Shown here: positions 46,372 through 51,667 of the stretch, piece after piece
How the letters are laid out: the number at the start of each line of letters is the position of its first letter
Numbering within the stretch: position 1 is the first letter of the stretch
Source: Prochlorococcus sp. scB243_495L20
Lineage (GTDB): Bacteria; Cyanobacteriota; Cyanobacteriia; PCC-6307; Cyanobiaceae
Reading direction: 5' to 3'
DNA length: 64,000 nt
Assembly (NCBI GenBank): GCA_000634215.1
Contig: JFLX01000001.1
Location: 1 to 64,000, forward strand
The notes under the pieces: generated by a model
Told to the model about the DNA's origin: nothing
Database searches by the model: none
The model's input: only the letters and a program-made list of their open reading frames with translations
Made by a program: the position numbers and the translations under genes

Positions 46372-47601
46372 CTAAGATAACAAATGAAGGTTTATAGCAT
46401 CTACGATTTTCTTACTTGCTCCGGATTCCCCCATTCTTTTTTTTCCAATTTTTGTTTGTTCTAACCTATCCACTTTTCCTTTCAAAAGTAAACTTAAATG
46501 TTGTAAAAGAATTTTTTTGTTCTTACAAACTAAAACACTACCTCCTAATAACCTTGATTGTCTTTTTGCAAATGATTTTGTAAATTGTGGTCCAGATCCT
46601 GGTAGAGAAAGAGATGGAATTCCCAGGCCAGCAATTTGCTCTGTAGCAGTTCCTGCATTAGACAAGCCAACTTCTGCCATATTGGCCCAAGAATTAAATT
46701 TACCTTTTCCAATCAATACATATTGATCTTTCTTTTTCCAAACTGAATCTTCATCAATTAGAAATTTAACTTTACTCTGTTTTATAAAACCATGTTTATT
46801 TAAATAACTTTGAATTTGAATCACATGCGCATTAATGCTCAAAGGCAAAAGTATTACCAAATCCTTTGATAAATCAAAATCTTCCAAACAATTAAGAAAA
46901 TTATCAAGATTTTTAAGAGCTTCAGGATATCTACTTCCAACTAATAAAATAATCCTTTTAAAAGAAATAATATTTGATATCATCTCGTTTGTTGCATTAA
47001 CAAAATCCATCATTGGATTACCCAAGTATTTTGCATCAATATTTTTTTTATTCAAATTATTAGCTGTAATTTTATCTCTCATAATTAAATTTTTACATCT
47101 TGGAGATTTCATTAAAAACATTTCCCATGGATCCCATTCAGAACCTTTCAACCTATGATAAAAATCGCTTAAATCCCAACCTGGCCCACTACTCCAAGTA
47201 TGGTCACTTTTGGGAGTTCCAATGAAACTAAATTCGCATTCTGAACTCCAAGCGTAAAGTAATGGCAAGAAATCGCCTACTGCGATAATTTTATATTTAT
47301 TTTTTGACTTTTGTTTCACTAGTAGAAAATTTCTCAAATTATCGATTAAAAATCCTGCAAACAAATCAAGCACAAATCCCTTAAGACTTTGATTGCTAAA
47401 ACCTCCACTAGGCAGCTCTTTTAAATATCCTATTTTACGAAAATTCTTTGATTTTATGGAATTAAATACATCTCCATTTCCTACTAACGGTAAAACTTCA
47501 ATATTCATATTTTTTATTCTTTTTAGTAATCTTTTTATTATTTCCGATGCGATTACATCTTCTCCATGTCCATTACATATAATTAATAGGGAATGAGACA
47601 C
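46372..47601 (-). CDS. LpxB-related glycosyltransferase-like protein
   Basis: About 409 aa. LLIICNGHGEDVIASEII at the start, GDFLPLLYAWSS mid-protein and GLSNAGTATEQIAGLGIPSL near the end match the lipid-A-disaccharide-synthase-related family of cyanobacteria, a GT-B-fold group of unknown substrate. I chose GTG at 47601. Further upstream the frame only stays open because it runs antisense through tRNA-Cys, giving APRFELGIKDLQSSALPLG, a known tRNA artefact. Confidence 0.75.
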   Translation of the reverse strand: MSHSLLIICNGHGEDVIASEIIKRLLKRIKNMNIEVLPLVGNGDVFNSIKSKNFRKIGYLKELPSGGFSNQSLKGFVLDLFAGFLIDNLRNFLLVKQKSKNKYKIIAVGDFLPLLYAWSSECEFSFIGTPKSDHTWSSGPGWDLSDFYHRLKGSEWDPWEMFLMKSPRCKNLIMRDKITANNLNKKNIDAKYLGNPMMDFVNATNEMISNIISFKRIILLVGSRYPEALKNLDNFLNCLEDFDLSKDLVILLPLSINAHVIQIQSYLNKHGFIKQSKVKFLIDEDSVWKKKDQYVLIGKGKFNSWANMAEVGLSNAGTATEQIAGLGIPSLSLPGSGPQFTKSFAKRQSRLLGGSVLVCKNKKILLQHLSLLLKGKVDRLEQTKIGKKRMGESGASKKIVDAINLHLLS

Positions 47602-47643
47602 CTTACTGTTAAGATCATAAAAAGACTCAATCGAATCTTTTTC

Positions 47644-47714
47644 GGCGGCATGGCCAAGTGGTAAGGCAGAGGATTGCAAATCCTTTATCCCCAGTTCGAA
47701 TCTGGGTGCCGCCT
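47644..47714 (+). tRNA. tRNA-Cys(GCA)
   Basis: 71 nt. The acceptor GGCGGCA pairs with TGCCGCC, with discriminator T. The anticodon loop TTGCAAA gives GCA, and the T-arm is CCCCAGTTCGAATCTGGG. Its last 21 bases plus two flanking bases are duplicated at 49476-49498. Confidence 0.97.
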
Positions 47715-47716
47715 TA
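47694..47716 (+). repeat. Direct repeat copy 1 (tRNA-Cys 3' end, att-like)
   Basis: 23 bp from the T-loop to just past the tRNA end, identical to 49476-49498. With one mismatch the identity runs on through the following TTAATTTTTT, about 34 bp in all. Such a repeat is what site-specific integration into a tRNA 3' end leaves. Confidence 0.85.
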
Positions 47717-47907
47717 ATTAATTTTTTTGCGATTTTTGCTATAAACCCCTCCAAAAACTTGAGTTTTGTATATTTTTTATACATTTTTATCACTCATTCT
47801 TTGGACAGCAATTGGAAAGCAAGTTTCTTAGATTGTAATAAACTAATACTAGTATCCTGTTTGTTTCTAATAAATCAAAATAATCAGATTTAAAATATAA
47901 TTTTTAA

Positions 47908-49158
47908 TTAGTCTATAAATCCTTCTATCAAATTTTTTGTTGAATAAATTCCAACAAATGGAGCTGTTACCTCTTTTATTACCCCAGTAGTTTTTCCAAG
48001 TATACTATCTTTTACTGTTATTAAATCATCTTCCTTTAAAAAGGGATTTCTTTTTGAGCCTCTTTTTGCATTTGCTGAATATGAAATTTTTTTCTTTGTT
48101 ACTTTTCCATCCTTCTCATACCTTATTAAAACAATCTTTCCAGAAAGAGGTTTTATAGGTCCAGATAAATCAATTGCATCGGATAATGTGGCTTCAAGAG
48201 GGAGTTTTACTACTCCAGGAGTTTCAACTCTACCAAAAAGATTTACTGAGATAAATTTTGGAGAAATACCAGATAAAATTGATTTTGCGATTTGATTTGG
48301 ATTAGATTTACTTAGTTTTGGAAAAAATAAACTATCTCCATCAAATATACGTATATCGTTAGTAGCATCTAATTCATTTAAATAAGCATTAAAATCAATA
48401 ATTGCTCTTTTTTTGCCTCCACCTTTTCCAAGAGGGACATCTCTTGTAATTTCAATTCTAGATAAATCAGTCTCAGAAGTTATACCACCAGCTTTTCTAA
48501 TTACATCAGAAATGGTAGTTATATTTTCACTTGATCTTTTGACTTCTAAACCTTGTGAAGATTGATTATTTAATTGCATATTTTGACCTATATTTGATTG
48601 CTCATTGTAATTTTCTTCCAATGAATCCAGCTCATAATTATCAATTTTTTTTGAAGTTATACTTGGATCTAATTGATAAGCGGAAAATTTATAAAAACCA
48701 GGATTTCTTAACTCACCTCTTGCTAACACTCTAATATCTTTAAACACTACAATCCTTACTTTTATTTCTGGATCAATTAGAAATTCAGCGTATCTTTTTT
48801 CCAATAAAGTTTTTAATTCAGACTTTGTTAATCCCCTTACAAACGTTTCGTCTAAACTTGGTAATAATAATTCTCCTTCTTGATTAACTGAAAAAACTCC
48901 ACTAAGTTCATCAGCAGGGAAAAATTCCAGAGCAATTGAGTCTCCAGAATCAATAATATAATCCTCTAATTCATTTTTCGATTCTAAATATTCAATTTCT
49001 ATTTGATTATTTTTTTTATTAGGAAAATTAGAATCTGCTTTAGATATATCAAATATGAATAAAAATAAAAAAACATTAAATATTAAAAACGGTTTAAATT
49101 TCCTTTTTAAAGAGAAAAATCCTATACATGTATTTTTAGAGAATTTTTGTAAAATCAA
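47908..49158 (-). CDS. Polysaccharide export protein (Poly_export/SLBB, Wza-like)
   Basis: 416 aa. A hydrophobic signal segment (about 22-40) ends at SKADS, a plausible cleavage site with no lipobox Cys. A Poly_export-like domain follows (IIDSGDSIALEFF), then SLBB-type domains (RGELRNPGFYKF, NLFGRVETPGVVKLPLEAT). The C-terminus GKTTGVIKEVTAPFVGIYST is shared with the gene cut at the window start. The start codon is TTG at 49158; no ATG precedes the signal segment. Expected in outer-membrane capsule or exopolysaccharide export. It stands alone between tRNA-Cys and its partial copy. Confidence 0.85.
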   Translation of the reverse strand: MILQKFSKNTCIGFFSLKRKFKPFLIFNVFLFLFIFDISKADSNFPNKKNNQIEIEYLESKNELEDYIIDSGDSIALEFFPADELSGVFSVNQEGELLLPSLDETFVRGLTKSELKTLLEKRYAEFLIDPEIKVRIVVFKDIRVLARGELRNPGFYKFSAYQLDPSITSKKIDNYELDSLEENYNEQSNIGQNMQLNNQSSQGLEVKRSSENITTISDVIRKAGGITSETDLSRIEITRDVPLGKGGGKKRAIIDFNAYLNELDATNDIRIFDGDSLFFPKLSKSNPNQIAKSILSGISPKFISVNLFGRVETPGVVKLPLEATLSDAIDLSGPIKPLSGKIVLIRYEKDGKVTKKKISYSANAKRGSKRNPFLKEDDLITVKDSILGKTTGVIKEVTAPFVGIYSTKNLIEGFID

Positions 49159-49699
49159 CTTTTTTAAAAAACTCTATTCAAGACTAAATCATATTACTAT
49201 TTTTCCTGATAAATAGAAATAGTTTTATCTTTTTATCTTTTTACTTGTCTTAATTTGAGACTGGAAACTTTTTGAACTTTTAAAAGTTAGTTAGGACTAA
49301 ATTTACACTCATTATTGATTATGTATTTTCTATTTAATCGCTTGCTTTATATAGGGCAATTTTGTATTCAAGAAATATCAAATTAATTTATTAATTATAA
49401 AATTTATGGAAAGCAAGTTAAAGTTAAAACTATTTAATAGCTAGTAAAAGCTTACTTCTTTAAAGAATTTCCTCTGTTCGAATCTGGGTGCCGCCTTATT
49501 TAATTTTTTACACATTTAATTAAGAAGTTTTCGAAAAACTTTAATTTCAAATAAAGGGTATAAGTTAAAATTACTTATTAATCTATAGAAAAATAATCAA
49601 TTATAAATTATTGAAAAACAATACCTTAATCCCACTAAAAAAAATTTAATAGATTTATTAATTATTTACATCAAATAATTTATAGAAATTGAAATTGTT
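49159..49699. other. 541-bp gene-poor region
   Basis: Very AT-rich, with only very short ORFs (the longest I checked has 21 codons, at 49321-49386). It contains the partial tRNA-Cys copy at 49476-49498. Its left part would hold the promoter of the SLBB gene. I see no RNA gene. Confidence 0.6.
49476..49498 (+). repeat. Direct repeat copy 2 (partial tRNA-Cys, att-like)
   Basis: A 23-bp exact copy of 47694-47716 on the same strand, 1,782 bp away. Sequence to its left does not continue the tRNA (no anticodon arm), so it is a remnant and not a gene. Confidence 0.85.
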
Positions 49700-49870
49700 T
49701 TAATAATCATTATCTGCCACACACATTCCAAAACATCTAATGCCATTTGAGGCAGTCCTTTTGCAATGATTACATAAAATGGGATCTTTCTCAGAATTAA
49801 GGTTGATTTTTGAATTATTTTGGACTTTGCAACTTTTTAATTCTTGTGTCGAATCAAATAGAGTCATTCT
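49700..49870 (-). CDS. Small cysteine-rich protein (56 aa)
   Basis: Start ATG 49870, overlapping the last 17 bases of the preceding gene. The C-terminal half has CNHC and CFGMC, four cysteines in a CxxC...CxxxC pattern that suggests a zinc-binding knuckle. An upstream in-frame ATG at 49912 lies deeper inside the neighbour and is less likely. The function is unknown. Translational coupling with the 214-aa protein upstream is likely. Confidence 0.6.
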   Translation of the reverse strand, partial: RMTLFDSTQELKSCKVQNNSKINLNSEKDPILCNHCKRTASNGIRCFGMCVADNDY

Positions 49871-50498
49871 TGGAATCATCACTTGAATCGATACTAACAA
49901 CAAGGGAAGCATTTGTGTTAGAAGATGGTATATCCATAATTTTCACAGTTTCTTTAGGCTCATCTATAACTTGATTTTTTTCTGTACTCTCATCAACTGC
50001 ACAAGCTTCAAGAGCTTCTCGAAGTAGTGAATCAAAAGTTGCTCCAGGCAATCTATGTCTAGCAACCTCAAGAAAAGTTCTCGGTAACGATTCGGATGCA
50101 GCATCTCGTAAAGCAGGATTATTCTTTCTATGTTCTTGTTCTTCTTCTATTGATTTAATAAACCTCAGTGTGACATCTCTTTTTGTAGAGGCTTTTATCA
50201 AAGTATCATTTTCAGGATTACTAACATTAGGTTCATTTTCAAGATCACTAAGTCGTTTTTCCAAACTATTTAGAACTTCATTAGCTTCTTTACTAATATG
50301 CGCTAATTGACCATCAGACAAATTTGGTAAATCAGCGACAAAAACTTTACCATGATCCCTTAGTGTCAAGAAAGTTGGTCTTGGGCCTTGAGCCTGTCTA
50401 CCAATTGATTCAGAATTATTCCCTAATGGTCTTTTTGGAGGTGTAGGTCCAGCTGAACTACGTCTACGTGTAATTCTTTGATTATTTGCAAAGGGCAT
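49854..50498 (-). CDS. Conserved hypothetical protein (214 aa)
   Basis: A basic, Pro-rich N-terminus (RITRRRSSAGPTPPKRPLG), a predicted helical middle with LSDGQLAHISKEANEVLNSL and LRFIKSIEEEQEHRKNN, and an Asp/Ser-rich acidic tail. No membrane segment or known domain. The composition suggests a nucleic-acid- or membrane-surface-binding soluble protein, but no function can be given. Confidence 0.65.
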   Translation of the reverse strand: MPFANNQRITRRRSSAGPTPPKRPLGNNSESIGRQAQGPRPTFLTLRDHGKVFVADLPNLSDGQLAHISKEANEVLNSLEKRLSDLENEPNVSNPENDTLIKASTKRDVTLRFIKSIEEEQEHRKNNPALRDAASESLPRTFLEVARHRLPGATFDSLLREALEACAVDESTEKNQVIDEPKETVKIMDIPSSNTNASLVVSIDSSDDSKNDSI

Positions 50499-50623
50499 TG
50501 AATAAAAGGTTAAATCTTAATGCTTAAACTTCCGATATTATTCGGCGGTGATTTTATTATATTACATCTAACTTTTTCATTTGGGTATAAAAAATAATTT
50601 TTTAAAACTCATCTAAAAAAAAT

Positions 50624-51667
50624 TTATGTTAGGATTTCTGGCAAAAATTTACTAATTGTTGAATTATTTTTTCGCACTATCTTTCCAATTTCCCAACTAT
50701 CTATATCATAATCTTTACAGATACTTAATATCGCGTCCTTAGATTTTTTATCAATAATTAAACAAAATCCAACTCCAAGATTGAAAGTATTCCAAAAATC
50801 TTTTTCAGGAATAGATCCTTGTTCTTTAAGGAATTTAAATAAAATAGGTATATCCCAAGAACTGGTATTGATATAAGGAATAAAATCAGAAGGAATACAT
50901 CTTGGTAAATTTTCTGGAATTCCTCCTCCAGTTATATGAGACATTGCTTTAATTTCTATATTTTCAGATAATATTTGGTTAATCACATTATTGTAAATTT
51001 TTGTAGGTTTCAATAACTCATCATAAAAACTTAAGTGAGAAACTTTTTCAAATTCCTTTTCTATTTGATTATTGTTTTGAATAATTTTTCTTACTAAACT
51101 AAAACCATTACTATGAACTCCATTACTTTTTAAAGCAATTATCAAGTCATTTTCAGAGACTTTTTTACCATTAATAAGCTTATCCTCATCGACTATTCCA
51201 ACACAAAATCCTGCAAGATCATACTTATTTTTTGAATAAAATCCTGGCATTTCAGCAGTTTCTCCGCCGAGTAATGAACAGTTATTTTCTCTGCAGCCAT
51301 GTGAAATTCCTTGAACAACCCTCAATAATTGTTTCTTATCAAGCTTACCAGTAGCAATATAATCCAGAAAAAATAACGGTTTTGCACCACTAGTAATGAT
51401 ATCGTTCATGCACATAGCAACTAAATCAATACCAACCTCAAAGTGAAAGTTTTTACTTTGGGCTAATTCTAATTTTGTTCCAACACCATCAGTTCCTGAA
51501 ACAAGAACTGGTTTTTTAAAACTATCGATAGGAATTCTAAACAAGCCTCCGAACCCGCCAATACCCTCAATCACATTAGATGTATGAGTTTCTTCAACTG
51601 CCTGTTTAATTTCGGAAACAAATTCTCGTCCAGCTTCTATGTCAACACCTGATGTTTTGTAATCCAT
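50624..51667 (-). CDS. purM: Phosphoribosylformylglycinamidine cyclo-ligase
   Basis: 347 aa. Forms AIR in purine synthesis. GTDGVGTKLELA, CMNDIITSGAKPLFFLDY, GGETAEMPGFY and MSHITGGGIPENLPR are the family's ATP/FGAM site motifs. Full length. Divergent from panC/cmk, with 98 bp between starts. Confidence 0.97.
   Translation of the reverse strand: MDYKTSGVDIEAGREFVSEIKQAVEETHTSNVIEGIGGFGGLFRIPIDSFKKPVLVSGTDGVGTKLELAQSKNFHFEVGIDLVAMCMNDIITSGAKPLFFLDYIATGKLDKKQLLRVVQGISHGCRENNCSLLGGETAEMPGFYSKNKYDLAGFCVGIVDEDKLINGKKVSENDLIIALKSNGVHSNGFSLVRKIIQNNNQIEKEFEKVSHLSFYDELLKPTKIYNNVINQILSENIEIKAMSHITGGGIPENLPRCIPSDFIPYINTSSWDIPILFKFLKEQGSIPEKDFWNTFNLGVGFCLIIDKKSKDAILSICKDYDIDSWEIGKIVRKNNSTISKFLPEILT

Follow-up and report, generated by a model that had tools for sequence, protein, structure and literature searches.

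The window, by which we mean the whole 64-kb stretch of DNA analysed here, carries behind its tRNA-Cys gene an insertion that is most likely a non-autonomous islet mobilised in trans. In the reading we favour, at a probability of roughly 0.7, this islet of about 1.8 kb used a recombinase from another element, selected through arm repeats, re-supplied the leader of an antisense gene and brought in an SLBB-type, Wza-like export gene as cargo; the copy in the window is probably immobile. The recombinase would join the islet to the final ~24 bp of the tRNA-Cys gene. Repeats of 11 bp would serve as its arm-type binding sites, with the arm sequence deciding which recombinase moves which cassette. 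The tRNA-side end of the islet would restore the 3' end of the tRNA and the 5' end of the LpxB-like gene together, as evidence at the level of codons suggests. The features of the locus are as follows.

46372-47784, reverse strand: LpxB-like protein (TIGR03492, lipid-A-disaccharide synthase-related), read from the leader start (ORF, profile match)
47644-47714, forward strand: tRNA-Cys (gca), the integration target (ARAGORN)
47694-47716, forward strand: tRNA-side core, the 3' end of tRNA-Cys (repeat comparison)
47717-47784, reverse strand: leader, an open frame from an ATG (47782-47784) through the antisense tRNA-Cys into the LpxB-like gene, MYKKYTKLKFLEGFIAKIAKKLIK-AAPRFELG... (codon pattern across loci)
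47802-47823, forward strand: left arm pair, 11-bp units TGGACAGCAAT TGGAAAGCAAG (tandem search)
47908-49158, reverse strand: cargo, predicted Wza-like polysaccharide export protein (416 aa, TTG start, Poly_export and SLBB domains)
49341-49351, reverse strand: single inverted arm-like unit, 9 of 11 matches (unit search)
49407-49417, forward strand: right arm, a single unit TGGAAAGCAAG, of which locus L033 has two (right-end sequence comparison)
49476-49498, forward strand: displaced core, the original host copy of the tRNA-Cys 3' end (repeat comparison)
49499-49575, reverse strand: host flank as at empty sites, including the displaced host leader with a frameshift (comparison with empty sites)
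49700-51667, reverse strand: anchor neighbours, namely a 70-aa ORF, a 214-aa ORF and a purM-like gene, purM being named by eye (ORF list, conservation)

The two cores are copies of GTTCGAATCTGGGTGCCGCCTTA, a 23-nt direct repeat of the tRNA-Cys 3' end that is exact and in the same orientation, as the earlier note had described; the match stretches to 40 nt at 93% (47688-47727 and 49470-49509). It is the sole exact direct repeat of 20 nt or more within the 64-kb window, and in the whole genome (1.57 Mb, 143 contigs) a 20-mer of the core is confined to these two places, even with up to two mismatches allowed. With the tRNA complete at one end and a second, displaced copy of its 3' end at the other, the arrangement is that of a tRNA-targeted integrative islet. 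The note had also placed one gene between the repeats, Wza-like and with a TTG start, and this is borne out by the 416-aa ORF, whose Poly_export, SLBB and SLBB_2 domains all score above the Pfam cut-offs. It is the sole long ORF between the repeats, and the islet gave no match to the integrase family found at this site in other genomes. Because it has no integrase gene of its own, we class it as a non-autonomous islet only. The proposal of a minimal, integrase-less islet thus stands as to the integrase; the islet is less minimal than supposed, because the end next to the tRNA includes arm repeats as well as a frame that is open into the antisense gene.

Window DNA from 47640 to 49520 matches 167 of 200 genomes of the genus, mostly, among the matches listed, in the tRNA-Cys and its near flank only. 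All five relatives that come from named genomes belong to Prochlorococcus, and we assign the window to that genus accordingly. We compared 80 tRNA-Cys loci, 79 fetched ones and that of the window, a non-random set in which SLBB cases and many longer matches were taken first. Empty sites in relatives, named beforehand as a test of integration, make up 39 of the 80: there the host flank, mostly TTATTTAATTTTTTTACGCA, follows the tRNA directly. The split into 39 empty and 41 non-empty loci rests on the sequence beside the tRNA, with L056 counted as empty. At empty sites the 70-aa ORF starts 277-289 bp past the tRNA start (180 in L077), while in the window it starts 2056 bp past it, an excess close to the repeat spacing of 1782. 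Both flanks are on one contig in 34 of the 41 non-empty loci, where the extra length ranges from -1 to 10371 bp. The displaced copies of the tRNA 3' end are followed either by the empty-site host flank or by another element-type end, the latter in L038, L049, L052 (first copy), L060 and L088, as in stacked elements. An SLBB gene adjoins tRNA-Cys in at least 10 of the 200 genomes (the window's own, G003, G010, G028, G045, G108, G129, G156, G181 and G191), and SLBB-positive loci are scattered over the tree of flanking genes. The islet reading of the earlier note is strengthened by this distribution and by the displaced copies that run into empty-site flank. The tRNA-Cys gene is a platform for many small inserts.

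On the strand opposite the tRNA, all 80 loci are open from a start codon about 140-146 nt past the tRNA start into the antisense tRNA-Cys. In 79 of the 80 the frame goes on to the NGHGED motif of the LpxB-like protein, and in L041 it turns into other sequence. The conventional start of the LpxB-like gene would be a GTG near 47601. By codon position, diversity amounts to 0.30/0.23/0.45 for the element-type set (42 rows, including L056) and to 0.08/0.05/0.17 for the empty set. The third-position excess is matched by one of 300 column shuffles in the former and none of 300 in the latter, and a translation-similarity score (BLOSUM) favours the leader frame in both sets, with 0 of 100 shuffles as good. 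The pN/pS ratio of the leader is 0.45 (41 sequences; pS of 0.61, near saturation) and 0.38 (38 sequences), compared with 0.23 for the body of the LpxB-like gene and 0.77 for the 15-codon linker, both computed with L041 and L083 excluded; controls in shifted frames yielded no ratio, there being too few stop-free rows. Among other genera, 32 of 50 rows could be sorted by eye into two further leader families with a like codon pattern (25 rows, 0.20/0.07/0.33; 7 rows, 0.16/0.15/0.32), and in eight rows the frame stops soon after the tRNA. Conservation of the left end as a recombinase site was abandoned as the sole reading once the coding pattern appeared.

The strongest alternative, which we hold to be possible though clearly the lesser choice, is that the leader is untranslated, the left end being conserved for a role as DNA, either a site or a promoter, with the open frame across the antisense tRNA incidental. 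The antisense tRNA is stop-free and unable to vary, the linker between the tRNA and the usual GTG start has no third-position excess, GC-rich relatives are without the leader, and at empty sites a frame on the sense strand scores nearly as well in BLOSUM (4.15 against 4.22), though it contains 37 stops. Against this stand the third-position excess in two sets, the pN/pS values and the recurrence of one codon pattern in three leader families. The leaders beside the tRNA are also never broken (0 of 80), whereas six of 17 displaced ones are (the window, L034, L035, L036, the second copy in L052 and L120), a contrast with a one-sided Fisher value of 1.3e-5 that ignores kinship and age. In the window, the displaced leader has six T where seven stand in most empty sites, which shifts its frame.

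The simplest reading of a translated leader is that insertion requires an element to carry two things, the 3' end of the tRNA and a functional 5' end for the antisense gene. Judging from these sequences, we infer that the islet re-supplied the end of tRNA-Cys and that its leader would provide the start codon and about the first 24 codons of the LpxB-like gene. One end of the insertion would then be under two constraints at once, from the tRNA that one strand specifies and from the protein encoded by its complement. In 15 of 79 loci, ATG, GTG and TTG are all absent between the tRNA and NGHGED, and an invariant TTG within the antisense tRNA is a possible start of the LpxB-like protein. Five loci combine an element-like leader with an insert of at most 50 bp, one of them of -1 bp; with almost no insert, the leader may be native there, on deep branches.

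An integrase at the tRNA-Cys site is present in one of the 41 non-empty loci, L046 (9.5 kb), in which a 461-aa protein adjoins the displaced core and a 222-aa protein has a Resolvase domain. Searched against Pfam, NCBIfam, PHROGs and PDB sequences, the 461-aa protein gave no match at the thresholds applied, and relatives of it occur in five of the 200 genomes of the genus, that of L046 included. In an alignment of four members of this integrase, one of them partial, R285, K314, R394 and Y432 are invariant. In L184 (48%), the integrase lies beside a copy of the tRNA-Cys 3' end, with the 214-aa neighbour ORF on the far side. Integrases are found near arm pairs and cores of tRNA-Cys or tRNA-Phe in L046, L184 and L188/L210; the relative in L187 has no arm pair near its start, and the one in L185 is ambiguous in this respect. 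A search of the window's own genome for a recombinase of the tRNA-Cys type found none, and a search of viral contigs for the 22-nt core, the SLBB protein and the integrase found no relatives. Elsewhere in the window's genome (L182, G000:C4:76388-76816) there is one phage integrase of the Pfam type, of 389 aa.

The candidate binding sites are tandem pairs of 11-bp units at a set place in the genus, 85-99 nt past the CCGCC of the tRNA. With a pair defined as at least 8 of 10 identical positions and 4 G or C, it is found in 25 of the 41 non-empty loci and in none of the 39 empty ones; the 25 are not independent, because the SLBB loci are kin. The other 16 non-empty loci, including SLBB loci L034 and L037, have no clear pair by this criterion, and the SLBB locus L035 has a left pair of a different type. 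Among the 50 rows from other genera, 20 have a pair by a 9-of-10 criterion (L158 and L181 being one place), some of them at 64-67 nt. The left pair of the window is the only such 9-of-10 tandem within it. When 47 loci, many of them short or cut by contig ends, were searched with their own left pairs, 12 downstream matches were obtained. Eleven of these are 74-80 bp before a copy of the tRNA-Cys 3' end, of which two are decayed (15 and 16 of 24 positions); the exception is L162. This GC-rich relative has a perfect 11-bp tandem (GGTGTAGCGGA twice) 119 nt past the CCGCC of tRNA-Cys, and no second core was found in it. In L039 and L041, the left end has three tandem arm units rather than two (GGACAGCAAGT repeated).

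The arms at the two ends of an element agree with each other, and they vary from one element to the next. In seven elements picked as unlike, one SLBB case among them, left and right arm windows match best, taken overall, within their own element: two of 5040 permutations reach the observed sum, the second being a swap of L060 and L122, which have a common arm type. In eight of nine elements, L046 being the exception, the right end also contains a third unit in inverted orientation (at most 12 of 500 shuffles are as good); the left end does so in five of nine, not including the SLBB elements tested. Matches to the SLBB arm pattern number 13, some of them overlapping, and come from eight of the 200 genomes; 12 are at SLBB-bearing tRNA-Cys loci, and the last is in G156, on a different contig, directly before a copy of the tRNA-Cys 3' end. 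The reversed pattern has no match in the 200 genomes. G028 and G129, each with an SLBB gene at tRNA-Cys, give no match to the pattern. The pair of the integrase-bearing L184, TGGGCGGTAAG twice, is the same as that of the 190-bp L052 element and close to those of the integrase-less L088. A tRNA-Phe element of G053, spread over two contigs, has GGAATGGTAC pairs at both ends and integrase pieces on both contigs; at the tRNA-Phe of the window's genome, neither these pairs nor integrase pieces are present. Elements of 190-197 bp, made up of a core, a leader and one arm pair, occur in L054 and between the two displaced cores of L052. With left and right arms coinciding, they look like deletions between arms that left solo ends.

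The inserts might instead be decayed remnants, autonomous tRNA-Cys elements that lost their integrases by deletion and whose cargo was inherited with no mobilisation in trans. Decay is present in the ends of the window's copy, in some displaced cores and leaders and in the two stops of the L036 SLBB gene, and the short solo elements resemble deletions between arms. Even so, we judge this account unlikely. Although 40 of the 41 non-empty loci are without an integrase, several retain complete, matching arms at the two ends and differ in cargo from one locus to the next, and the SLBB loci do not cluster on the flank tree. On that tree, of three flanking proteins from 71 loci, six SLBB rows need six changes (shuffled mean 5.9), and the five rows nearest to the window are empty sites. 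Ten of its 68 inner branches are well supported, and these alone force at least three changes. We return to an islet mobilised in trans, of which the window's copy may now be immobile: one right arm unit is missing and the displaced leader is frameshifted, making it probable from its sequence that the copy no longer moves. Neither an excised circle nor a transfer was seen.

Spread by homologous recombination through the flanks, from purM to lpxB, in place of site-specific recombination, would suit flanks that are very alike from locus to locus (for example, 90-93% identity for the LpxB-like protein and 93-96% for purM in most SLBB loci), and such exchange can carry any insert. It leaves the duplication of the tRNA 3' end, the set arm spacing and the matching ends unexplained, and we consider it improbable as the sole process, though homologous recombination may act additionally. 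An assembly artefact or a chance repeat, for which the division of the genome into 143 contigs might be cited, deserves almost no credence, since the arrangement recurs in independent genomes and none of 40 order-2 Markov simulations of the window gave an exact direct repeat of 20 nt or more.

Composition was uninformative as a mark of foreign origin. The GC content is 26.0% for the islet, 32.6% for the window, 27.7% for the SLBB gene and 30.2-36.1% for the three neighbour genes. In 3-mer composition, 22 of 101 windows lie further from the mean than the SLBB gene, which is therefore no outlier, so the k-mer comparison of islet and flanks that the earlier note had suggested decides nothing.

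For the tRNA-Cys site as a whole, we regard the chances as even that it serves as a platform on which mostly integrase-less cassettes recruit recombinases in trans by self-matching arm codes, stack and collapse to solo ends, with every insertion repairing the tRNA 3' end and the LpxB-like start and rewriting the N-terminus of the LpxB-like protein. Integron gene cassettes offer an analogy, and no more, for such stacked, mostly one-gene inserts. An attP of the lambda type consists of a core and short repeated arm-type integrase sites at set distances; here, in contrast, the arm sequence varies among elements and cassettes are without int. Tycheposons of Prochlorococcus, reportedly the subject of Hackl et al. 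in Cell in 2023, and the window's islet are cargo-bearing elements at tRNA genes of the same genus. The islet differs from them in having no recombinase gene, and we do not count it as a tycheposon.

As far as the accessible text of PMC10872708 goes, tycheposons span 4-200 kbp, with a tyrosine recombinase, and use one of seven tRNA genes. The same text describes an additive island of Methylophilaceae behind tRNA-Lys, with repeats of the last 20 bp of the tRNA, sizes from 330 bp and variable cargo; unlike the tRNA-Cys elements, it is presented there without arm analysis or an antisense gene. For an element that supplies the 5' end of a gene there is precedent in the dusA-specific islands, in which, according to the available part of PMC4482086, island sequence replaces the 5' end of the target gene. 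The target core here is instead the 3' end of a tRNA, and the replaced 5' end is on the opposite strand.

Closest is the picocyanobacterial integrase family 'cluster158946', reported in the accessible part of PMC10187409 as belonging to a putative mobile element at tRNA-Phe or tRNA-Cys. There the family is set apart from tycheposon integrases, for which reason we dropped 'tycheposon' as a name for L046, and has a small serine recombinase nearby; its mechanism is called not yet known. The elements described here share with it the two tRNAs, variable cargo, a divergent tyrosine recombinase in which the R/K/R/Y pattern is conserved and a small serine recombinase close by. On a comparison of residues with the published description, the tRNA-Cys integrase (P0001 and L184) is likely to belong to this family. 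The islet of the window differs in being without an integrase, and the accessible description mentions no attachment core, arm repeats, integrase-less cassettes or antisense leader. A literature search that covered few subscription papers likewise returned no paper dealing with either arm repeats at the tRNA-Cys site or an antisense leader there. The core, arm spacing and arm variation amount to a testable attachment-site model for the tRNA-Cys/Phe integrases, whose mechanism that part of PMC10187409 calls unknown. Arm variation would be a way to predict which integrase moves which cassette, and the arrangement is a possible route to the gain of single genes without keeping an integrase in a streamlined and very abundant ocean genus.

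Every NCBIfam equivalog scored below its cut-off for the SLBB protein. By eye, the N-terminus of the protein has a signal-like stretch with no cysteine at its end. The SLBB gene tree is poorly resolved (six changes, shuffled mean 7.4; 94 of 500 shuffles as low) and cannot tell whether the tRNA-Cys copies form one lineage or how often the gene moved. At 19 loci away from tRNA-Cys that bear SLBB copies, a tRNA is within the fetched stretch in six and a 9-of-10 tandem of period 11 is present in seven, in none of the SLBB arm type. Inserts other than SLBB have one to a few genes each, among them a GNAT acetyltransferase, a methyltransferase, a TPR protein, a hydrolase-like protein below the Pfam cut-offs and small proteins without a match. 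Among 60 non-overlapping cargo ORFs of at least 80 aa, 42 are oriented like lpxB and purM and 18 are opposite.

In L053 (G144:C4), an insert of ~6.4 kb, from +428 to +6586 past the tRNA-Cys start, has genes in a single direction that by eye appear sugar-related, resembling genes for sugar biosynthesis, glycosyltransferases and methyltransferases; a search of this locus for a displaced core gave none. The SLBB gene of the tRNA-Cys islet in L036 (G181:C114:10559-11752) has two in-frame TAA stops and may be a pseudogene. In L040 (G003:C12:1-4000), the islet protein is 577 aa long, compared with about 416 aa, and its export part is duplicated. The window's genome has a second, longer SLBB-type protein at a contig end (L106, G000:C116:78956-80222), a 572-aa frame with repeated export-like parts, and long forms resembling it occur in G003, G010, G108 and G131. 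In L082, at ~+906 to +1397 past the tRNA-Cys start, the reading frame of the displaced host leader runs uninterrupted into a cargo ORF that has a signal-like stretch, which might make it a new fusion start.
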